The position numbers were made by a program, and so were the translations under genes. The notes under the pieces are model-generated. The model was given only the letters and a program-made list of their open reading frames with translations. It was not told where the DNA came from and ran no database searches. Source: Dysgonomonas sp. ZJ279 (lineage in GTDB: Bacteria > Bacteroidota > Bacteroidia > Bacteroidales > Dysgonomonadaceae). From it: a DNA stretch of 64,000 nucleotides. The stretch lies in the NCBI RefSeq assembly GCF_011039205.1, contig NZ_JAAKEL010000001.1, positions 682,001 to 746,000 of the forward strand, read 5' to 3'. Positions 23,293 through 40,275 of this stretch are shown here, piece after piece; the stretch's first letter is position 1; each line of letters opens with the position of its first letter.

Positions 23293-23306
23293 TGCAAACG
23301 ATTGCA
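23293..23306 (+). promoter_or_regulatory. LacI-type operator upstream of susC
   Basis: TGCAAACGATTGCA, a 14-base near-perfect palindrome with the central CG typical of LacI-family sites. It lies 59 bases before a TTTG core (23366-23369) that probably is the -7 of the susC promoter (CATATTTG). The same motif precedes the GH97 and GH77 genes at the same distance. Confidence 0.8.
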
Positions 23307-23361
23307 TAACAAAAACATGTGATTCTGTTACTTGTCTAGTCCTAAACACAATTCAACTTAT

Positions 23362-23369
23362 CATATTTG
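23362..23369 (+). promoter_or_regulatory. Probable -7 box of the susC operon
   Basis: CATATTTG, one mismatch to TAnnTTTG. No good -33 element is seen, which would fit an activator-dependent promoter. The predicted leader of about 100 bases contains an inverted repeat CATGAAA / TTTCATG (23388-23414). Confidence 0.5.
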
Positions 23370-23479
23370 CATCATAAATCTAAGACCCATGAAAGTGTTC
23401 GAAACCTTTTCATGAGTACTTACAGTGTAGTGTATAGTGTAAATCAAATATTGTTAAGCTAATCCTTAATATTATCCAC

Positions 23480-26400
23480 ATGAAAAGGAAAACAAATCAG
23501 AAAAGTTATGCGAGAGTATTCTTATTCTTAATGATTGGAATGCTGACATTAACAAACTTGTACGCTCAAGAGGGTGCAACGATTGCTGTTAATGGAAATG
23601 TAAAAGATAATCTTGGTGAGCCTATTACAGGTGCAAGTGTTGTCGTGAAAGGTACAACCGTCGGAGCAATGACGGATATTGACGGGAATTTTCAAATCAA
23701 TACACCCTCCAATTCGACTTTAGTTATTTCTTTTATTGGTTTTACAACGAAAGAAGTATCGGTAGCAGGTAAAAGATCAATCTCTGTAATGCTGGAAGAG
23801 GATGTAGCGTTACTGGATGAAGTTGTAGTTATCGGCTATGGTAGCGTTAAAAAAGAAGATTTAACAGGTGCTGTTACTACTATTTCGGCAAATTCACTAG
23901 CAAGAGGTATGGCTGTAGCCGCCTCTGACCTATTGATTGGAAAAGCACCCGGTGTTAGCGTTATTAATGATGGAGGTGCTCCCGGTACAGGAGCTTCTAT
24001 CCGCATTCGCGGAGGATCGTCAGTTTCGGCTAGTAATGAGCCCCTTGTTGTGATTGATGGTATACCGGTTGATAATAATGCGATCAATGGTATGGGTAAT
24101 CCTTTATCTACAGTCAATCCGAACGATATAGAGAGTTTTACAGTACTGAAGGATGCTTCTGCTACTGCAATTTATGGTTCTCGTGCATCGAATGGTGTTA
24201 TCATTATAACCACCAAAAAAGGACAGGCAGGGAAACCTAAAGTGGCCTATAACGGAACATTCTCAATTAGTACCAAAAAAGGTGAAATAGATGTGATGGA
24301 TGCTGGTCGATTCCGTAACTACGTAACGGAAGTATTTGGCGCAGGAAGTGAGCAAGTAAAAGCTTTAGGTTCTGCTTCGACAAACTGGCAGGATGCAATT
24401 TTCCGTACATCGTTTAGTAACGACCATAACATAAGTGTAGCCGGTGCTGCGAATATGTTACCTTATCGCGTTTCACTGGGATATACTAAAGAGAATGGTA
24501 TCTTGAAAACATCAACTATGGATCGTTGGACGGGATCACTTAATTTGAGCCCTAAATTCTTTGACGATAAGTTAAGTGTACAATTAAACGTAAAAGGCGT
24601 CTATAATACAAACGTATTTGCTGACAAAGGAGCCATTGGTGCTGCGGCTGAATTCGATCCTACTCAACCTATTTATAGCGATGATAGCAAATATGGTAAT
24701 GGATATTACATGTATTTGAAAGAAGATGGTACACCTATCGATATAGGTTTGACTAATCCGGTAGCCTTTCTTAACCAGAAACACGATGAGTCGACAGTGA
24801 AAAGAAGTCTCGGTAATGTTCAATTCGACTATAAAATGCATTTCTTACCTGAACTGCGTGCAAACTTAAATCTCGGTTACGATGTCTCTAGCAGTAAAGG
24901 AAACGTGACTATCGAAGATAACTCTCCGATGAGTTGGGTACAAGGTAATTTTAAAGAAGGATGGGGAGATAATAGAGATTATACTCAGCTAAAACGCAGT
25001 TTATTAATGGAGTTCTATCTTAATTATGCGAAAGAGATCGGTAAGCATCGTTTTGATGTACTGGGCGGTTATTCATGGCAAGAATTCTATAGAAAAGATA
25101 CAAACATATACCCTTACTCATCAACAGTTGCTGAGCAAAAAGATGCCACATTCTACAAAGAAGGTGATTCTTACGAGTCTGAAAACTATTTGATATCGTT
25201 CTTTGGTCGTGCAAATTATACATTCGACAATCGTTACTTATTCACTGCTACTTTGCGTAGAGATGGTTCGTCTCGTTTCAATGAAGATAATCGTTGGGGA
25301 TTATTCCCTTCTGCAGCATTAGCATGGAGAATCAACGAAGAATCGTTTATGAAGGATCAAACTTTATTCTCAGATTTGAAGCTGCGTTTGGGTTATGGTA
25401 TTACAGGTCAACAAAATCTTGGTTCGGATGTCGGGGATTATCCACATCTGGCGAGATATAAATATAGTAAACCGGGTGCTAATTACTTCTGGGGCGACGA
25501 GAAAGTTCAAGTACTTCGACCAGAGGCATATGACAAAGGCTTAAAATGGGAAGAAACTACGACTTATAACGTCGGTGTTGACTATGGATTCTTAGGAAAT
25601 CGTATTTCAGGAGCAGTAGATGTATATTATCGCAAAACAAAAGATCTTTTAAATAAAGTTCCTATTTCGGCAGGTACAAACTTTAGTAATGTATTGCTGA
25701 CTAATATGGGAGAGCTTGTAAATAAAGGTATTGAGTTTTCTGTAACAGCTCGTCCTATCGAAACCAAAGATTGGAACTGGACATTGAATTATAATGTTTC
25801 GTACAATGATAATGAAATAACTAAAGTACTTGATAATCCTAATCCTGATTATGCGGGAATTATCCATGGTGGTATATCCGGAGGTACAGGAACAAATGTT
25901 TTGATTCACGCTTTAAATCATCCATTCAATTCATTCTATGTATACGAGCAGGTTTATAATAGTGATGGAAGACCGATAGAAGGAGCATTTATCGATCAAA
26001 ATAAAGATGGCGTAATAGATACAAAAGATTTGATTAAATACAAAAGTGCTGCGCCGGATGTATTGATGGGTATGACTTCTCAATTGGCATATAAGAACTG
26101 GGATTTTAACTTTACAGTGCGCGCGAGTATCGGAAACTATGCTTACAACAATATTCAATCGAACAGAGAAGCACATGGTGGTGCCATCATGTACGACCCG
26201 TCGGGATTCTTGAAAAATCGTGTGAACAGTGCTGCGTATACTAACTTCAGCGACCCTCAATATCTGTCAAGTTATTACGTGCAAAATGCATCTTTCGTGC
26301 GGATGGACAATATCTCACTCGGATATACATTCGTTAATCCTGTGAAATATGTAGGTTCTATGAGGTTATATGGAACAGTGCAAAATCCATTTGTAATAAC

Positions 26401-26503
26401 ATCGTATAATGGTTTAGATCCGGAATTTAACAATGAGGGTATCGATAATAATATTTATCCACGCCCACGTATATACATGATAGGTCTTAGCCTACAATTC
26501 TAA
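23480..26503 (+). CDS. susC: SusC-type TonB-dependent outer-membrane transporter
   Basis: 1007 residues. Signal peptide to about residue 30 (LTLTNLYAQ). A carboxypeptidase-like domain follows (VNGNVKDNLGEPITGASVVVKGTTVGAMTDIDGNF), then a TonB box and plug (DEVVVIGYGSVKKEDLTGAV, IRIRGGSSVSASNEPLVVIDGIPVD, LKDASATAIYGSRASNGVIIITTKKG). A large beta-barrel ends with an aromatic residue (LSLQF). With the SusD lipoprotein it imports malto-oligosaccharides; this substrate is inferred from neighbouring GH97, GH13 and GH77 genes. SusD starts 20 bases after its stop. Expression is probably controlled by the operator at 23293. Confidence 0.95.
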   Translation: MKRKTNQKSYARVFLFLMIGMLTLTNLYAQEGATIAVNGNVKDNLGEPITGASVVVKGTTVGAMTDIDGNFQINTPSNSTLVISFIGFTTKEVSVAGKRSISVMLEEDVALLDEVVVIGYGSVKKEDLTGAVTTISANSLARGMAVAASDLLIGKAPGVSVINDGGAPGTGASIRIRGGSSVSASNEPLVVIDGIPVDNNAINGMGNPLSTVNPNDIESFTVLKDASATAIYGSRASNGVIIITTKKGQAGKPKVAYNGTFSISTKKGEIDVMDAGRFRNYVTEVFGAGSEQVKALGSASTNWQDAIFRTSFSNDHNISVAGAANMLPYRVSLGYTKENGILKTSTMDRWTGSLNLSPKFFDDKLSVQLNVKGVYNTNVFADKGAIGAAAEFDPTQPIYSDDSKYGNGYYMYLKEDGTPIDIGLTNPVAFLNQKHDESTVKRSLGNVQFDYKMHFLPELRANLNLGYDVSSSKGNVTIEDNSPMSWVQGNFKEGWGDNRDYTQLKRSLLMEFYLNYAKEIGKHRFDVLGGYSWQEFYRKDTNIYPYSSTVAEQKDATFYKEGDSYESENYLISFFGRANYTFDNRYLFTATLRRDGSSRFNEDNRWGLFPSAALAWRINEESFMKDQTLFSDLKLRLGYGITGQQNLGSDVGDYPHLARYKYSKPGANYFWGDEKVQVLRPEAYDKGLKWEETTTYNVGVDYGFLGNRISGAVDVYYRKTKDLLNKVPISAGTNFSNVLLTNMGELVNKGIEFSVTARPIETKDWNWTLNYNVSYNDNEITKVLDNPNPDYAGIIHGGISGGTGTNVLIHALNHPFNSFYVYEQVYNSDGRPIEGAFIDQNKDGVIDTKDLIKYKSAAPDVLMGMTSQLAYKNWDFNFTVRASIGNYAYNNIQSNREAHGGAIMYDPSGFLKNRVNSAAYTNFSDPQYLSSYYVQNASFVRMDNISLGYTFVNPVKYVGSMRLYGTVQNPFVITSYNGLDPEFNNEGIDNNIYPRPRIYMIGLSLQF

Positions 26504-26522
26504 TCTTCAAAATAAAATAGAT

Positions 26523-28142
26523 ATGAAAACTATAAAATATAAATATTTGGCAATAGCGCTATTGTTTGGAGTATCAGTAGCTATGACATCATGTACGGAT
26601 GATCTGGATACATTGCCCATCGATCCGAACGAACAGGTATCTGAAACTGTTTTCGGAAAAGAATTAGGAGCTTATAAATCCAGCTTAGCTAAAATTTATG
26701 CAGGATATACTATTTCAGGAAACAAAGCGGGAGATGACGAGTCGGATGTAGCCGGTGTTGACGGTGGTAGTCAGGCTTCTTTCTTACGCGGTTTGTGGAA
26801 TATGCAGGAATTACCGACTGATGAAGCTCATTGTAACTGGACTGATGTTGGTATCGATAATTTCAATTACATGAACTGGAATTCAGGAAATGTATTTATC
26901 AAAGGAATGTATTACCGTCTTTATTATCAGGTGAATCTTGCAAATGAGTTTCTAAGGGAAACAACTGATGAGAAATTATCATCGCGAGGAGTTGAGGCTG
27001 ATGTAAGATCAGAAATCGAGGTTTATAGAGGCGATGCTCGTTTCTTGAGAGCTCTTGCCTATTATTACCTGTTAGATATGTTCCGTGCCGTTCCTTTTGT
27101 TACGGAAAATAATGCGATCGGTAAAGAACCCCCTACACAAATTCAACCGAAAGAATTATTTACTTATATCGAAACAGAATTATTGGAGTCTCAAGATGCT
27201 TTATTAGAACCATTCGTGGGTTATAACAATAAATATTATGGTCGCGTTACTAAAGCGGCAGCATGGTCTTTATTATCACGTTTGTATCTGAATGCAGGAA
27301 CTTATACCGGAGTAAGTAAATACACAGAATGTATTACTTATAGCAGTAAAGTAATAGCAGTAGGATATGAATTAGAACCTAAGTACGAAGATATGTTTAA
27401 AGCTGATAACGGTAATTCAAAAGAAATGATTTTCCCTATTCGCTACGAAGGTGCTGATACTCAAACTTGGGGTGGAATGACATTCCTTATCTGTAGTACT
27501 GTACCATCGGCACTACAAAGCGATGTTAATGCACAAGGCGCCTGGCAGGGTAATCGTGCCCGCGTATCTCTGTTGAATGTTTTCAAAAAAGAAACCGGCT
27601 ATAATGATGATACCCGTTTCTCTATGTTGAAACCCGATTTGGCAGATAATGTGGAAATAATCGACCCGACCAGATATAAGAATGGTATCCCTGTCGTTAA
27701 ATATTCGAACGTGAATAAAGACGGATCTTTGCCGCCAAGTAATATTGTTTATACCGATTTTCCTTTATTCCGTTTGGGCGAAATATACTTGAATTATGCA
27801 GAGGCAGTTCTTCGAGGGGGAGCAGGCGGTAGTACATCTACAGCACTCACTTATGTGAACAATCTACGTAAACGTGCATATAACAATTCTCCTAGTGCAA
27901 GTGTTAGCTCTATAAACGAGCAATTTATACTAGACGAGCGCGGACGTGAATTTTTCTTCGAAGCACAACGCCGTACCGATTTGGTTCGTTTCAATCAATT
28001 GACAACCGATTCATATATTTGGACATGGAAGGGTAATACCTTTAACGGAAAAAGCGTAGATAAAAGATACAATGTATACCCGATTCCTGCTGACGATATG
28101 GGTTCTAATCCGAACCTGCAACAATACGCGGACGGATATTAA
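26523..28142 (+). CDS. susD: SusD-type surface glycan-binding lipoprotein
   Basis: 539 residues. Lipobox at MTSC, Cys24, followed by TDDLD, an acidic run of the kind that directs Bacteroidetes lipoproteins to the cell surface. The helical TPR-like SusD fold is visible in YRGDARFLRALAYYYLLDMFRAVPFVTEN, KAAAWSLLSRLYLNAGTY, and the C-terminal RLGEIYLNYAEAVLRG and ERGREFFFEAQRRTDLVRF signatures. It caps the SusC barrel and binds starch oligomers. Second gene of the susCDE operon. Confidence 0.95.
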   Translation: MKTIKYKYLAIALLFGVSVAMTSCTDDLDTLPIDPNEQVSETVFGKELGAYKSSLAKIYAGYTISGNKAGDDESDVAGVDGGSQASFLRGLWNMQELPTDEAHCNWTDVGIDNFNYMNWNSGNVFIKGMYYRLYYQVNLANEFLRETTDEKLSSRGVEADVRSEIEVYRGDARFLRALAYYYLLDMFRAVPFVTENNAIGKEPPTQIQPKELFTYIETELLESQDALLEPFVGYNNKYYGRVTKAAAWSLLSRLYLNAGTYTGVSKYTECITYSSKVIAVGYELEPKYEDMFKADNGNSKEMIFPIRYEGADTQTWGGMTFLICSTVPSALQSDVNAQGAWQGNRARVSLLNVFKKETGYNDDTRFSMLKPDLADNVEIIDPTRYKNGIPVVKYSNVNKDGSLPPSNIVYTDFPLFRLGEIYLNYAEAVLRGGAGGSTSTALTYVNNLRKRAYNNSPSASVSSINEQFILDERGREFFFEAQRRTDLVRFNQLTTDSYIWTWKGNTFNGKSVDKRYNVYPIPADDMGSNPNLQQYADGY

Positions 28143-28177
28143 TTTACGAGTTATCATAAATATAATATATAAGAATT

Positions 28178-29230
28178 ATGAAAAAACTAAATATATTTTT
28201 AATCATATCGCTTTGTCTGTTTGGATTTTATTCCTGCGATGATGATAGCAATAGGATAACGTTGAATGAAAATGATTTTGTAGCCCCTGTTTTCACACAG
28301 GAAGTTACGCAAGGATTTGAAATAACAGAAGATACAGATTTGACAGAGGTTATCGGTTCTTGGAGCTGGACTAAATCTGAATTTGGTGTACAATCTCCTT
28401 CCAGATACGAGATTGAAGTGGACACACTCGAATCTTTCGAAACATTCAAGGTGTTTACAGCTACAGCTGGAACGTCTATAGAGCTGACTTATAAGGAGCT
28501 GAATAATGCTGCTATGATGTTTGTGAAGGAATCCAGAGAGATTAAACTTTACTTCCGCTTGAAGACGAGTTTGGGTACAGCAGGCGCGGATCCGGTATTT
28601 ATTAGCGATACCAAATCGGTTGCATTCACTTGTTTGTATATACTGCCTCTTCCGACAGAACTTTATATGACCGGCGCAGATTTTGGCGGCTGGAATTGGG
28701 ATGCAGAAGGTGCTGTTAAATTAATACCTGTTAATGGTGTTGCGGGAGCATTTTGGACTATTAATTATTTTACAGGTGGTAATGGTTTTAAATGGTCACC
28801 TGATAGAGATTGGGGTACAGCTTTCGGAAAACAAGATACATCGATCGGCTTTACAAACGATGGCGATGGGAATGCTGTTGTACCCGCAGATGGTTTGTAT
28901 ATGGTTTATATAGATATGGCTGAAAAGAAAATAGCAATCGAACCGGCTAAGATTTATGGTATCGGTGATGCCTTTGGCGGATGGTCGGAAGGTCAATATC
29001 CATTTACTGTGACTGATGGTAAAGCTACAATTACAACAACTGCGGCCAATAATGTCAGAATGTATGCTGCATCTTCTATTGCAACATCAGATTGGTGGAC
29101 CAGAGAGTTTAATATTTTTAATGGCAAGATTGAATATAGAGGAACAGGCGGTGATCAAGCTGCTGTTCCGGTTGCAGCAGGAGCTGTTGTAACTCTTGAC
29201 TTTAAAACAGGAACAGGTACGATTCAATAA
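28178..29230 (+). CDS. SusE/SusF-like starch-binding lipoprotein
   Basis: 350 residues. Lipobox ending YSC, Cys20, followed by DDDSN (likely surface-export signal). Residues 35-140 are the SusE-type N-terminal domain. Residues 150-350 hold two carbohydrate-binding modules of the SusE/SusF type: LYMTGADFGGWNWDAEGAVKLIPV and IYGIGDAFGGWSEGQYPFTV, each with the conserved GG-W. It is shorter than SusF, which has more modules. It binds starch at the surface near SusCD. The operon ends in a hairpin right after it. Confidence 0.85.
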   Translation: MKKLNIFLIISLCLFGFYSCDDDSNRITLNENDFVAPVFTQEVTQGFEITEDTDLTEVIGSWSWTKSEFGVQSPSRYEIEVDTLESFETFKVFTATAGTSIELTYKELNNAAMMFVKESREIKLYFRLKTSLGTAGADPVFISDTKSVAFTCLYILPLPTELYMTGADFGGWNWDAEGAVKLIPVNGVAGAFWTINYFTGGNGFKWSPDRDWGTAFGKQDTSIGFTNDGDGNAVVPADGLYMVYIDMAEKKIAIEPAKIYGIGDAFGGWSEGQYPFTVTDGKATITTTAANNVRMYAASSIATSDWWTREFNIFNGKIEYRGTGGDQAAVPVAAGAVVTLDFKTGTGTIQ

Positions 29231-29253
29231 ATTGTAAAATAAATTCTTCATAG

Positions 29254-29283
29254 AAAGCGATAGGGATATTTACCTGTCGCTTT
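29254..29283 (+). terminator. Terminator of the susCDE operon
   Basis: AAAGCGATAGG / CCTGTCGCTTT stem with one G-T pair, 8-base loop, then TTTTTTT. Its presence means the downstream GH97 gene needs the separate promoter predicted at 29301-29376. Confidence 0.8.
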
Positions 29284-29300
29284 TTTTATAATGTTTTATC

Positions 29301-29314
29301 TGCAAACGTTTGCA
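29301..29314 (+). promoter_or_regulatory. LacI-type operator upstream of GH97
   Basis: TGCAAACGTTTGCA, a perfect 14-base palindrome. It lies 18 bases after the susCDE terminator and 58 bases before the TTTG core at 29373-29376. Confidence 0.85.
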
Positions 29315-29362
29315 ACGAAAAATGCTTCATTGCATTGGGCATATAGGCATATAGCAGTATCT

Positions 29363-29387
29363 AATCCGTTACTTTGTATAACGGATT
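29363..29387 (+). promoter_or_regulatory. Inverted repeat around the GH97 -7 region
   Basis: Perfect 9-base arms AATCCGTTA (29363-29371) and TAACGGATT (29379-29387) flank the putative -7 core TTTG (29373-29376, in TTACTTTG). It could be a second operator or a leader hairpin; no matching protein is known here. Confidence 0.45.
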
Positions 29388-29438
29388 CTATCCGACTTCA
29401 TTTAAGATGATAAATCATTAAATCACTAATTATATTAA

Positions 29439-31658
<2,220 letters not shown>

Positions 31659-31710
31659 GGTCTATATTAGTAAGATTGTTTAGATCATAGTAATGTTTAG
31701 TTTAAATTCA

Positions 31711-31738
31711 AGGGCGCAGATTATTCAATCTGCGCCCT
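31711..31738. terminator. Bidirectional terminator at the centre of the starch locus
   Basis: Perfect 12-bp stem AGGGCGCAGATT with its complement and a 4-base loop, between the convergent GH97 and GH13 genes. Tails are weak in T on both sides but the stem is strong and GC-rich. Confidence 0.75.
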
Positions 31739-31768
31739 CACTGTTTGTATATAAACTAAAACTGAATG

Positions 31769-33139
31769 TTATTTTGTCAGTACTCTATACTCCCAAGGTT
31801 TAAGAGTTGCAGGTAGTTCTTTGATGGCTGTTCCTGTAAAGTAATCTGTAAAATTACCTCTGCCAAATCCATCGTTACTCGTATACGTAATATTCTTATC
31901 CGATAAGTTCAGCATAACAAGGATTTCTTTCCCTTCTCTTTCTCGTGAGAATATAAGTAAATTATCGTTAGCGGAAGTACTGTATCTTTTTATCTTTCCG
32001 CCTTGTTCACCGGCACGCAAAGCAGGATGAGTGCGTTTTAGATTATTTAATTTTTTATAGAATTCTGTAGTTGAGTTTTCGTTCCATGACGGAACTTGGT
32101 CTTTCTCGAAGAAAGATAAACGTTTCTTTAATCCTACTTCTTGTCCGGTATATATCATCGGCATACCATTGAGAGTATAGGTAAGTACAGCAAAAGCTTC
32201 CACACCCTTTCCGTAACGTTCGAATTCTGTTCCGTTCCACGAATTTTCATCGTGATTGGTAAGGAAATTCATTTTATAAGCATCACTACAAATTGTAGTA
32301 TCCAGTTTTTGAATATAAGAGTAAATAGTGTCAGCATTCTTAGTCTTTTTTACTACATCAGCCATCATATGCATCAATTCCCATGAATAGTTCGCATCAA
32401 AAGCATGCTCTAACAAGTCAGAGTTTTCAGATTCGGCTAGCATAAACATTGGTTTTACACTGTCCAATTCCTTTCTGGTACTATTCCAGAAATCGGTTGG
32501 AACCTCGTGCGCCATATCGCATCTGAAACCATCGATATCGAAATCGGTAACCCAATATTTCATCGCACCAACCATTGCCGTGCGCATATCATTGTTATCG
32601 TAATTCAACTCTGCGGTGTCAGTCCAGTCGTAAGGCGAAACAATCGTGTTGGTACTGTCTTTCATGTACCAATCAGGATGTTCGGTTATCCATGCATTAT
32701 CCCAGCCTGTATGATTTGCTACCCAGTCTATTATTACTTTGAATCCCATTTCGTGAGCCTTATCTACCAAGCGTTTGAAGTCTTCTTTTGTACCGAATTC
32801 GGGATTGATACCTTTGTAGTCTTTTACAGCGTAATAGCTGCCGAGTGTTCCTTTTCTATTTTTTTCTGATATAGGATGCACTGGCATAATCCAAAGTACA
32901 TCCACCCCTAATTCTTTAAGACGGGGCAAATGCTGTTCGAATGCAGCGAATGTTCCTTCTTTGGTGTATTGTCTGATATTTACTTCGTAGATTACAGCAT
33001 TACGGGTCCAATCGAGGTGTTGCACGGTGCATTTTTCTTCTGTTTCTACTGTTAGATTATCATTATTGGCTTTTTGTTTACAAGATGTACCAAGCAAAAC
33101 AAGGGATGCAATAATGAATAATGAAAGATTCTTTCTCAT
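31769..33139 (-). CDS. GH13 alpha-amylase-family lipoprotein
   Basis: 456 residues. Lipobox LGTSC, Cys20, followed by KQKANN, with no acidic run, so a periplasm-facing lipoprotein is more likely than a surface one. GH13 regions: VIIDWVANHTG, GFRCDMA with the nucleophile Asp208, LAESE with acid/base Glu236, and FLTNHDEN with Asp297. It is shorter than SusG and has no CBM58-like insertion. It should hydrolyse alpha-1,4 links of maltodextrins. Last gene of the operon that starts with GH77, 18 bases after the MFS gene. Confidence 0.92.
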   Translation of the reverse strand: MRKNLSLFIIASLVLLGTSCKQKANNDNLTVETEEKCTVQHLDWTRNAVIYEVNIRQYTKEGTFAAFEQHLPRLKELGVDVLWIMPVHPISEKNRKGTLGSYYAVKDYKGINPEFGTKEDFKRLVDKAHEMGFKVIIDWVANHTGWDNAWITEHPDWYMKDSTNTIVSPYDWTDTAELNYDNNDMRTAMVGAMKYWVTDFDIDGFRCDMAHEVPTDFWNSTRKELDSVKPMFMLAESENSDLLEHAFDANYSWELMHMMADVVKKTKNADTIYSYIQKLDTTICSDAYKMNFLTNHDENSWNGTEFERYGKGVEAFAVLTYTLNGMPMIYTGQEVGLKKRLSFFEKDQVPSWNENSTTEFYKKLNNLKRTHPALRAGEQGGKIKRYSTSANDNLLIFSREREGKEILVMLNLSDKNITYTSNDGFGRGNFTDYFTGTAIKELPATLKPWEYRVLTK

Positions 33140-33157
33140 GTAATTTATTTTATGTAT

Positions 33158-34498
33158 TTATTTTATCATTTCAGTTTCTGCTGCTTTAGGCTCTATGTCT
33201 TTTACAAACGCAACCGAAATTGCTGCTAATAACATGGACACGCCTGCGACAACAAGCATTGTGATAGAACTGCCTTCGGCAACGTATTTCAACAATAAGC
33301 CACCTGTTAATCCCGCAACAATCTGAGGAATGGTGATTGTCGCATTGAATATTCCCATATATACACCCATTTTACTTGCAGGAAGTGCTGCTGATAGAAT
33401 TGCATAGGGCATAGCAAGAATACCTGCCCAAGCAATACCAATGCCAAGCATGGAAATCAGCAACATATTTTTATCATCGAAGAAGAACATCGACACTAAG
33501 CCTAATGCACCCATTAACAGAGCAAAAGAATAAACTTTTTTACGTCCTATTTTATCGGCTATCTTTGCCATGAATATGGAAAATCCAACAGCGAATATGC
33601 CATAAATGCCACTCAATACACCATTCCAGTTTCCTGCTTCGTTATATGCTTGTGAAAGAGGGTCTTTCGTGTGCCAAACATTTTCAGCAATACCATCGGT
33701 TGCATATACCCACATTAAGAATAATGCAAACCACGAGAAAAACTGGACAATGGATAGCTGAAGCATCGTTTTAGGAGTGCTTTTCAGAATATCGACGAAC
33801 GATGTTTTTTTCTTTTCAGCCTCTGTGATATTATTATATTCTTCATACTCTTTAGGTGGATATTCTTTCACGCGGAAACATGTCCATAGCACAGCGAGTA
33901 ATAATACTGCTCCTCCGAAATAAAATGCCCAGATTACCGAAGGCGGAACCATTTCCCCTACTTTCGGTATATTTCTTATCCCGATCCATGTCAGTATAAA
34001 TGGAAGAAAGGAACCTACAACAGCCCCTATATTTGTAAGGAAACTCTGTATCGAGTATCCTTGATTTCGTTGTTTATCGTTTACCATATCCCCAACCAGT
34101 GATCGGAATGGTTGCATGGAAACATTGAATGCACAGTCCATAAACAGCAACATGCAGGCACCGAAAAATACGGGTGGGAAAATATGCGCTACTATTTCAG
34201 AATTGGGCATAAAGAACATGGCAATTGCAGACACTATTGCTCCAGCCAGTATAAAAGGAATACGCCTGCCTAGTCTTGTCCATGTACGATCGCTCGACAT
34301 TCCGATGATCGGTTGTACAATAAGTCCGGCTATGGGTGCTGCCAGCCAGAATAGGGGAAGGTGATGTGGATCAGCTCCGAGAGCCGAAAGTATTCGGCTT
34401 GTTTGAGAACTTTGCAATGAATATCCTATTTGTATGCCTAAAAATCCGAAACTAAGATTCCAGATTTGCCAAAAGTTAAGAGTAGGTTTTTGTTTCAT
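33158..34498 (-). CDS. MFS sugar permease, maltose/SLC45-like
   Basis: 446 residues with 12 predicted membrane helices. The N-terminus (FWQIWNLSFGFLGIQIGYSLQSSQTSRIL) and the loop GMSSDRTWTRLGRRIPFILAG between helices 2 and 3 are characteristic of the proton-coupled SLC45/GPH-like sugar transporters found in Bacteroidetes maltose loci. A second half motif is KIADKIGRKKVYSFALLMG. It imports maltose or glucose across the inner membrane. It lies between LacI and GH13 genes in one operon. Confidence 0.9.
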   Translation of the reverse strand: MKQKPTLNFWQIWNLSFGFLGIQIGYSLQSSQTSRILSALGADPHHLPLFWLAAPIAGLIVQPIIGMSSDRTWTRLGRRIPFILAGAIVSAIAMFFMPNSEIVAHIFPPVFFGACMLLFMDCAFNVSMQPFRSLVGDMVNDKQRNQGYSIQSFLTNIGAVVGSFLPFILTWIGIRNIPKVGEMVPPSVIWAFYFGGAVLLLAVLWTCFRVKEYPPKEYEEYNNITEAEKKKTSFVDILKSTPKTMLQLSIVQFFSWFALFLMWVYATDGIAENVWHTKDPLSQAYNEAGNWNGVLSGIYGIFAVGFSIFMAKIADKIGRKKVYSFALLMGALGLVSMFFFDDKNMLLISMLGIGIAWAGILAMPYAILSAALPASKMGVYMGIFNATITIPQIVAGLTGGLLLKYVAEGSSITMLVVAGVSMLLAAISVAFVKDIEPKAAETEMIK

Positions 34499-34537
34499 GG
34501 TATATGGTTTAGATCGGTATTAGTTTAGTGTATTATT

Positions 34538-35563
34538 TTAATTGTCGGGTAGAACACGTGTAGTCTGCCTGACAATCAGCGATGTTTTTATGATCTTATT
34601 CTTTCGTGTCGTGTCTTCGGGATTTTCAACTTTTTCGAGCAAAAGTTTCATCGCTTCTTCGCCTACTTTTTCGGGGTGCTGATCCATTGTTGTAAGCATC
34701 GGATCGGTATCCTGTGATATATTCGAGTTCGAGAACCCGCAAATAGATATATCATCAGGTATTCTTAGTTTTAGTTTCTTTGCCGCTAATAATATGCCGG
34801 AAGCTGTATAATCATTCATTGCCATAAAACCATCGGGTCTATTTGGCTCTTGGAGTATCTCCATTGCTCTTTCATATCCTAATGGCTTATTGTCGGCTAT
34901 ACGAATCAAATTTTCTTCTACTGGTAAATGATATTTGCGTATAGCATCCAGATAGCCGTTTTTTCTGTTTTTCGAAATCTCCATATGAAGAGGTGCAGAG
35001 AAAAAAGCTATGCGCTTACATCCGCTTTTGATCATATATTCCACAGCTGTGAATGTGCCGGAATAATCATCTACCACAACTTTATCGGCATCTATACCGA
35101 TGCATATTCTGTCGAAAAAGATAACAGGTATATCATTATCCAGCAACTCTTCGAAATGTTCGTACTGCGTTGTTGTCTTAGCTTGTGAAATAAGGGCACC
35201 GCAAACGCGAGCCTTTATCAGAGTTTGCACATTACGTATTTCTTTATGGTAATCTTCTGATGATTGACAAATAATAACCTGATAACCTTTGTCTTCGGCA
35301 ATTGTTTCCATTCCAGACAATACTGCTGAGAAGAAATGATTTGCCAATTCGGGCACAATAACTCCGATGATATTGGTGTGCTGATTACGCAGGCTAAGGG
35401 CAAGAGCATTCGGCTTGTATTTATTTTTTTTGGCGTACTCCTGAACAAGTTTTCGTGTTTCGAGGCTGATGTCGGGATTATCCTTTAAAGCCCTCGACAC
35501 AGTCGAGGGCGAAACATTCAAATCTTTGGCTATATCTTTTATTGTGAGATGACCTTTTTTCAT
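34538..35563 (-). CDS. LacI-family regulator of the starch locus
   Basis: 341 residues. Helix-turn-helix TIKDIAKDLNVSPSTVSRAL (7-26), hinge helix YKPNALALSLRNQ, then a periplasmic-binding-protein-like sugar domain (NIIGVIVPELANHFFSAVLSG, PVIFFDR, GFMAMNDYTASGILLAAKKL). It sits in the middle of the maltodextrin operon. Three 14-base palindromes with LacI-type CG centres precede the three transcription units of the locus, so it is the obvious regulator. Their constant position upstream of the -7 boxes suggests activation. There is no SusR in the window. Confidence 0.92.
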   Translation of the reverse strand: MKKGHLTIKDIAKDLNVSPSTVSRALKDNPDISLETRKLVQEYAKKNKYKPNALALSLRNQHTNIIGVIVPELANHFFSAVLSGMETIAEDKGYQVIICQSSEDYHKEIRNVQTLIKARVCGALISQAKTTTQYEHFEELLDNDIPVIFFDRICIGIDADKVVVDDYSGTFTAVEYMIKSGCKRIAFFSAPLHMEISKNRKNGYLDAIRKYHLPVEENLIRIADNKPLGYERAMEILQEPNRPDGFMAMNDYTASGILLAAKKLKLRIPDDISICGFSNSNISQDTDPMLTTMDQHPEKVGEEAMKLLLEKVENPEDTTRKNKIIKTSLIVRQTTRVLPDN

Positions 35564-35600
35564 GATTGGAGACGTTGAGGAGTTATCCCTATAAAAATAA

Positions 35601-40137
<4,537 letters not shown>

Positions 40138-40199
40138 GTGATTTTTCTTTGTGGCTATTATTTTATGGTCGTCTAGTTAAAGGTCTTCCTCTCTTGTAA

Positions 40200-40207
40200 C
40201 AAAACTA
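40200..40207 (-). promoter_or_regulatory. -7 box of the GH77 operon
   Basis: TAGTTTTG on the - strand, an exact TAnnTTTG match, 63 bases before the ATG. The -33 region offers only a weak CTTTAG. Confidence 0.6.
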
Positions 40208-40261
40208 CGTATTAATAAACTAAAGTCTTTTATATAAAGCCGCTTTTTTGTCAAAATGGGC

Positions 40262-40275
40262 TGCAAACGATTGCA
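40262..40275 (-). promoter_or_regulatory. LacI-type operator upstream of the GH77 operon
   Basis: TGCAATCGTTTGCA on the - strand (TGCAAACGATTGCA on +), identical to the susC site. It is 58 bases upstream of the TTTG core of the -7 box at 40200-40207. The rest of 40138-40418 holds no gene. Confidence 0.85.

Follow-up and report, generated by a model that had tools for sequence, protein, structure and literature searches.

The window analysed here, a stretch of 64,000 nucleotides from Dysgonomonas sp. ZJ279, carries a starch utilisation locus in which three copies of a 14 base pair (bp) palindrome precede predicted promoters at an almost constant distance. The locus also encodes a LacI-family regulator, which probably reads these sites. 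On the plus strand, susC, susD and SusE/F-type genes (23480..29230) are followed by a gene of glycoside hydrolase (GH) family 97 (29448..31658). A co-directional run of genes on the minus strand, in the order GH77 - GH13 - lacI - MFS - GH13, extends from 40137 down to 31769. It comprises a GH77 4-alpha-glucanotransferase with CBM20 (37459..40137), a GH13 cyclomaltodextrinase-type gene (35601..37484), the LacI-family regulator of 341 amino acids (34538..35563), a major facilitator superfamily (MFS) sugar transporter (33158..34498) and a GH13 alpha-amylase family gene (31769..33139). We infer that this run forms a single operon. Pfam places a SusC-type receptor at the start of the plus-strand cluster, assigns the enzymes and the transporter, and upholds the identities that an earlier note on this DNA had given to susC, GH77 and GH97.

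The palindromes that the note had assigned to susC, the GH77 operon and GH97 are present, and all three are exact. Operator 1 (TGCAAACGATTGCA, 23293..23306, plus strand) sits 5′ of susC and operator 2 (TGCAAACGTTTGCA, 29301..29314, plus strand) 5′ of GH97. Operator 3 (again TGCAAACGATTGCA, 40262..40275, minus strand) sits 5′ of the GH77-GH13-lacI-MFS-GH13 run. All three conform to TGCAAACGWTTGCA, an even palindrome with a central CG, which is described as characteristic of even palindromic LacI-family operators (PMC4052901). The gap from operator to the TTTG of the predicted -7 box was re-measured as 59 at susC, 58 at GH97 and 58 on the minus strand at GH77, in agreement with the note. The box is CATATTTG at susC (23362..23369, plus strand; C replaces T at position 1), TTACTTTG at GH97 (29369..29376, plus strand; T replaces A at position 2) and TAGTTTTG at the GH77 run (40200..40207, minus strand). 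The first two, correctly called deviant, each differ from TANNTTTG at one of its six fixed positions; the GH77 box agrees at all six.

The regulator combines a LacI-type helix-turn-helix with a sensor domain. Pfam assigns the LacI domain to residues 7-52 (PF00356, 46.5 bits, cut-off 27) and periplasmic-binding-like domains (Peripla_BP_3) to residues 65-335, with PF13377 scoring 113.9 bits. The best match by sequence to a solved structure is CcpA (1rzr, E 1e-45). The protein resembles PurR and CcpA in length, and the match spans both almost end to end; it is therefore unlikely, judging by sequence, that it carries the LacI-type tetramer tail used for looping.

Operator sites in the genome

The 4,103,119-base Dysgonomonas genome contains three copies of the exact palindrome TGCAANCGNTTGCA, all of them within the starch locus. 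Allowing one mismatch gives 16 sites genome-wide, against 5 for the reversed control. At up to three mismatches the window holds 22 matches against 13.7 expected. This is near chance, as would be found were the palindromes or their spacing coincidental, and every remaining match of this kind inside the starch locus is intragenic. Of 61 related genomes, 35 contain the operator and none contains the reversed control of TGCAAWCGWTTGCA.

Two of the one-mismatch sites have a suitably placed box. The first, AGCAAACGATTGCA, lies 875 bp beyond the end of the window (contig position 746875) and is followed by TATATTTG at gap 59. A glycogen synthase gene (PF05693) lies before it and an alpha-glucan phosphorylase gene (PF11897, PF00343) after it; the phosphorylase has exact operators in congeners. 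This is likely to be the fourth site of the genome. The second site, TGTAAGCGATTGCA (C47:203119, L318), has the 5-of-6 box TCTTTTTG at gap 57 and is a possible weak target. The other 11 of the 13 one-mismatch sites have neither a full box at gap 59 nor a 5-of-6 box at 57.

Conservation of the spacing

The note had proposed checking the spacing in orthologous loci; when this was done, the constant gap held. We assembled 118 loci, namely the window, 37 regions of related genomes that surround the best matches to the regulator, and the best 80 named loci of a longer list (several on the same contigs as some fetched regions). With operators of identical 94-bp context counted once, these loci hold 115 distinct sites that have a CG centre and no more than one mismatch; 60 of the sites are exact. 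A -7 box with at most one miss is found at gap 57-60 for 97/115 operators, against a mean of 9.6 and a maximum of 22 in other 4-bp windows; among exact operators the figure is 59/60. Around the exact operators, 72 TANNTTTG boxes occur at gaps of 4-117 on either side and 64 of the 72 lie at 57-61. For 24 operators there are boxes at 57-60 on both sides (other windows, at most 4), which indicates that two promoters can share a palindrome placed halfway between them. In this wider set 107 operator-linked promoters precede susC (30), lacI-like genes (28), GH77 (20), MFS transporters (16), GH13 (1) and other genes (10), with 2 unassigned.

The same spacing is seen closer to the window. Upstream of GH77 in 15 congeners the exact palindrome is present in 15/15, with gaps to TAGNTTTG of 57 (one), 58 (three) and 59 (eleven). 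A further sample of relatives consisted of 40 stretches taken among the matches listed, all from Dysgonomonas except G029, which belongs to the same family. In it 45/47 exact operators are followed at gap 57-59 by a box that keeps at least five of the six bases; rows of this sample, and of the 393-genome scan described below, stem from related genomes and are thus not independent. The 45 operators precede GH97 (13), susC (11), glgP-like (11), GH13-type (5) and GH77 (2) genes; the remaining 3 are next to no labelled gene and have a susC-type box. Starch genes are dispersed in the congeners and the operators are retained. Spacer sequences have drifted apart (37-61% ungapped identity with the first row for susC, 19-39% for GH97 and 26-46% for glgP), yet operator, gap and box type stay constant. 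In G029 two tandem GH97 genes each have an exact operator at gap 59 (L056:5872, L056:8314). An exact operator in G487 (L107:1564) with gap-59 boxes on both sides stands between SAICAR synthetase/pyruvate kinase and crcB/enolase genes, as assigned by Pfam. By analogy with AraQ and MalR1, which bind eno and pyk in Bifidobacterium, the regulator of G487 may control glycolysis.

We also considered whether all Bacteroidota LacI proteins share this geometry, and found no support for the idea. In 62 paralogue loci, with 60 intergenic CG-centred palindromes and boxes counted at gaps 4-117, only 2/28 TANNTTTG boxes lie at gap 57-60. This comparison is coarse because these palindromes are only candidate operators of the paralogues, but the lack of a peak indicates that the method does not itself generate one, and we therefore treat the geometry as a property of this regulator group. 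In two paralogue loci, L202:3890 and L204:3790, other palindromes are accompanied by TANNTTTG (gaps 59 and 58, respectively). This may be chance, or a sister group may use the same geometry. The rarity of the exact site, the spacing statistics and the peakless paralogue control together exclude coincidence for practical purposes, and we give it a negligible probability.

Link to the regulator gene

The operator was also searched for without reference to any LacI gene. In 393 Bacteroidales genomes, the window included, we scanned for operators that have TANNTTTG behind them at a gap of 44-72, two-sided operators being counted twice. This gave 42 matches in 28 genomes, with 28/42 at gap 57-60 against 5.8 expected for a uniform distribution; the reversed control pattern matched in one genome. 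Among 395 genomes of the class there were ten matches within the order, at 57-59, and three outside it, at 52, 75 and 79. The search for LacI relatives covered 21 of the 28 genomes; the other 7 have no match at 57-60. All 16 genomes with a match at 57-60 encode a LacI match of at least 47% identity, whereas G591, the sole searched genome without one, has its box at gap 47.

Within Dysgonomonas the exact operator is found in 18/18 genomes with an orthologue of the regulator (82-84% identical in three congeners) and in 2/7 without (p 0.0004); three of those seven assemblies are less than 90% complete. This association, the LacI match in all 16 genomes with a box at 57-60, the gap of 47 in G591 and the lacI-like gene that follows 28 of the 107 linked promoters speak against the idea that a protein other than the adjacent LacI reads the palindromes. 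That idea draws on the presence of LacI paralogues in the genome and on Dysgonomonas G013 (L286-L288), where four well-spaced operators are found and the orthologue was not detected in a 94% complete assembly. The latter case also counts against our own interpretation; it may reflect an assembly gap or replacement of the regulator. We judge a different reader to be very improbable. Some other close regulator loci come from metagenome-assembled genomes titled Prevotella sp., and a 237-kb Parabacteroides distasonis plasmid (PLSDB NZ_OY725823.1, 47325-48335) encodes a LacI protein 57.6% identical to the regulator.

Promoter architecture

The flavobacterial -7 box spans -12 to -5 (PMC9723704). With the boxes so placed, the predicted operator centres fall at -73.5 (GH97, GH77) and -74.5 (susC), and the near edge of the operator lies at about -67 (GH97, GH77) or -68 (susC) from the predicted start sites. 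The operators thus neither overlap nor follow the core promoter, as a classical LacI repressor site would, at the three predicted promoters of the window; the exception, outside the window, is Parabacteroides lacI. Their position is that of class I sites, at a fixed distance upstream of the -35/-33 region, in 97/115 and 45/47 cases in the two samples.

Between operator and promoter two short A/T patches are found. After operator 1 (23312..23324, plus strand) they are AAAA (+6..+9) and ATT (+16..+18), and between operator 3 and the GH77 promoter (40244..40256, minus strand) they are TTTT and AAA. After operator 2 (29320..29332, plus strand) the first patch is AAAT and the second is TTG, so that at GH97 the pattern is partial. 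We propose the patches as the region contacted by the C-terminal domain (CTD) of the polymerase alpha subunit. The wider set was thinned to below 62% identity, and the non-promoter sides of operators with a promoter opposite served as control. Positions +7..+9 are all A/T in 68/106 promoter sides vs 7/52 non-promoter sides, and positions +16..+18 in 83/106 vs 14/52 (Fisher p 8e-10). Between the patches, at +11..+13, the contrast is reversed (21/106 promoter sides vs 21/52). The second-patch position is 90-95% A/T at operator-linked promoters, compared with 74-76% at operator-less promoter-like sites of the same loci. Spaced 9-10 bases apart beside the presumed activator site, the patches are what docking of two alpha-CTDs would select. 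The rpoA gene of the Dysgonomonas genome encodes an alpha-CTD with the segments VRALNCLK and NFGKKSL, which by sequence fits such docking; we take these segments to resemble the DNA-contact residues of the E. coli alpha-CTD.

The -7 boxes of susC and GH97 are conserved in their imperfection. At susC the box is CAT[AC]TTTG in 15/15 promoters listed, three of them assigned by box and context, and at GH97 T stands for the consensus A in 16/16 promoters listed. Cores kept imperfect in this way suggest dependence on an activator. The lack of a clear -33 element, which the note had also pointed out, is real at the three window promoters: no TTG occurs 15-26 bp before any box, and at susC there is one at a distance of 27 bp. 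As evidence for activation it is weak. At operator-linked promoters 19/91 have TTG at the -33 place (shuffled mean 9.5) and 4/91 have TTTG (3.3); at operator-less promoter-like sites the counts are 56/266 (30.2) and 27/266 (11.4). For Flavobacterium johnsoniae, PMC7366714 reports that a -33 element could not be identified.

Proposed mechanism and alternatives

We consider it probable that alpha-glucan use in this Dysgonomonas is regulated by the protein at 34538-35563, and that this member of a family known chiefly for repressors works as a class-I-type activator. It is the conserved imperfect boxes together with the uniform geometry that lead us to this view. The earlier note had described the geometry as typical of activation from about -75, and the predicted centres, the conserved distance, the two-sided use and the promoter-side A/T patches bear this out. 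The sign of regulation, binding of the operator by the LacI protein, the alpha contact and the ligand are all read from sequence.

In the proposed mechanism a LacI-family dimer, bound to the 14-bp operator with its CG centre, would sit at about -74, which should leave the core promoter uncovered. The bound dimer would hold the alpha-CTDs on the two A/T patches, at about -59 and -50, and this contact would recruit polymerase to intrinsically weak core promoters. The targets would be susCDE, GH97, the GH77-GH13-lacI-MFS-GH13 run and the alpha-glucan phosphorylase outside the window. The regulator gene lies within the GH77 run, so an activator would regulate itself positively. The presumed signal is a cytoplasmic ligand derived from maltose or maltodextrin that enables binding or activation; given that the run codes for a transporter of inner-membrane type and for enzymes acting on alpha-glucans, a malto-oligosaccharide is likely.

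Several observations weigh against this mechanism. Most LacI-family proteins bind DNA free of ligand (PMC4052901), so activation that depends on sugar would need a less common logic. E. coli GalR, bound at -60.5, represses gal P1, a promoter also without a -35 element, and activates P2, in both cases by contact through the alpha-CTD (PMC4693257). The main rival explanation follows directly: the sugar-free LacI protein would block open-complex formation via the alpha-CTD, as GalR does, until maltose releases it. Such a contact repressor matches the common ligand-off logic of the family, and conserved geometry and A/T patches would also be expected of it. The patch contrast is moreover partly compositional, since promoter sides are A/T-richer overall (0.70 vs 0.62) and some non-promoter sides may be intragenic. 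However, the conserved imperfect boxes of susC and GH97 would be odd for promoters that fire strongly upon release. At gal the outcome differs between promoters 5 bp apart, whereas here one spacing is used for all targets. We therefore regard contact repression as unlikely, though it is the most serious of the alternatives to activation.

Also unfavourable to activation from a fixed distance are those operators, 18 of the 115, that lack a box at gap 57-60. Eight of them are TGCCATCGTTTGCA in Labilibaculum/Marinifilum-type loci, and the two of these that were examined both lie within the SusC N-terminal coding sequence. Four Marinifilum TGCAATCGTTTGAA sites directly 3′ of the regulator gene (L169:11131, L176:11131, L179:11130, L189:11132) all have TACTTTTG at gap 83, so that this one lineage shows a different geometry. 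The operator of L065 has its box at gap 48, and those of L066, L070 and L173 have no box nearby. In the sample of relatives the 2/47 misfits are L267, from G017, which has no orthologue, and L284, from G014.

Two more of the 18 operators, in Parabacteroides (L143:9941, L149:9940), stand 22 bp before the -7 box of lacI itself, a position like that of a repressor site. A dual regulator, which activates catabolic promoters and represses where the operator is near the core promoter, would account for these, and LacI-type factors are reported to be able to act either way by position (PMC6882875). The near position is, however, confined to two loci of one genus, and the other matches with up to three mismatches in the window's starch locus are intragenic. 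Dual regulation is compatible with the activator mechanism rather than opposed to it, and seems to us improbable.

Significance

The reading can be extended, with somewhat less confidence but still as more probable than not, to the Bacteroidales at large, here Dysgonomonas, some Bacteroides, Prevotella/Hoylesella, Paludibacter and others. In this order an orthologous LacI-family protein would be an obligate class-I activator that switches on starch and glycogen use through one rigid promoter module. The module would consist of the 14-bp operator, alpha-CTD patches at ~+8 and ~+17, a distance of 58-59 bp to TTTG and -7 boxes that stay weak. Two promoters, often that of susC and that of the gene for the activator, could be driven from one palindrome halfway between them.

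Neither activators of the LacI family nor class-I promoters are new in themselves. To our knowledge, activation geometry at the -7/-33 promoters of Bacteroidota has been little worked out, and starch control there has been told mainly through the periplasmic sensor SusR. In full-text searches that covered few subscription papers, none of the articles listed appears to deal with starch activation by LacI-type proteins in Bacteroidota, or with such a regulator whose rigid, activator-like spacing recurs throughout the Bacteroidales. MalR, studied in B. thetaiotaomicron by Cho et al. (2001), may be nearer prior art and might narrow the novelty. If the mechanism is correct, the regulator would be a cytoplasmic, ligand-on alternative to SusR, and a LacI-family case of a regulon founded on activation with uniform geometry. 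The regulon would join the sus genes with alpha-glucan phosphorylase. The exact-spacing module would be a directly testable system, well defined for studying activation of the Bacteroidota polymerase, and the operator motif could be used to annotate starch regulons in gut Bacteroidales.

Comparison with known systems

SusR of B. thetaiotaomicron shares with the present regulator a role in controlling starch utilisation genes. According to PMC3878776 it resides in the membrane and binds periplasmic maltose, and the sites predicted for it are direct repeats with a distance of 67 or 77 bp between them. The window regulator is by contrast a LacI-type protein with a 14-bp palindrome; Pfam gives LacI and periplasmic-binding-like domains, no SusR model having been run. 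The statement of the earlier note that Bacteroides uses SusR agrees with what PMC3878776 says of B. thetaiotaomicron. In other members of the genus, however, namely in loci that bear the titles Bacteroides gallinarum, B. neonati and B. muris, a relative of the present LacI protein (54-56% identity) is encoded and the geometry is the same.

Among LacI-family proteins, CcpA and the Bifidobacterium regulators AraQ and MalR1 are likewise thought to activate when bound upstream of the core promoter. The CcpA site is given as 14 bp upstream of -35 and the AraQ/MalR1 sites as 15-16 or 33-35 bp upstream (PMC6882875). AraQ and MalR1 sites lie, in the account of that paper, at no particular distance, whereas here 58 or 59 bp to TTTG are found at nearly all targets. 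The promoters are of the -7/-33 type and the targets across Bacteroidales are mostly alpha-glucan genes, which further separates this group from all three. GalR resembles the window regulator in its family and its single upstream operator, from which it acts through the alpha-CTD (PMC4693257), but gal has an additional internal operator and DNA looping. The window promoters have one site each at a constant distance.

A further parallel is provided by E. coli CRP, whose class I sites are at -61.5 or further upstream (PMC2859248). Both have a single upstream site, and CRP has the alpha-CTD docked on DNA just downstream of it, as proposed here for the A/T patches. CRP differs in belonging to an unrelated protein family, and the centre of the palindromes in Dysgonomonas is predicted to lie near -74.

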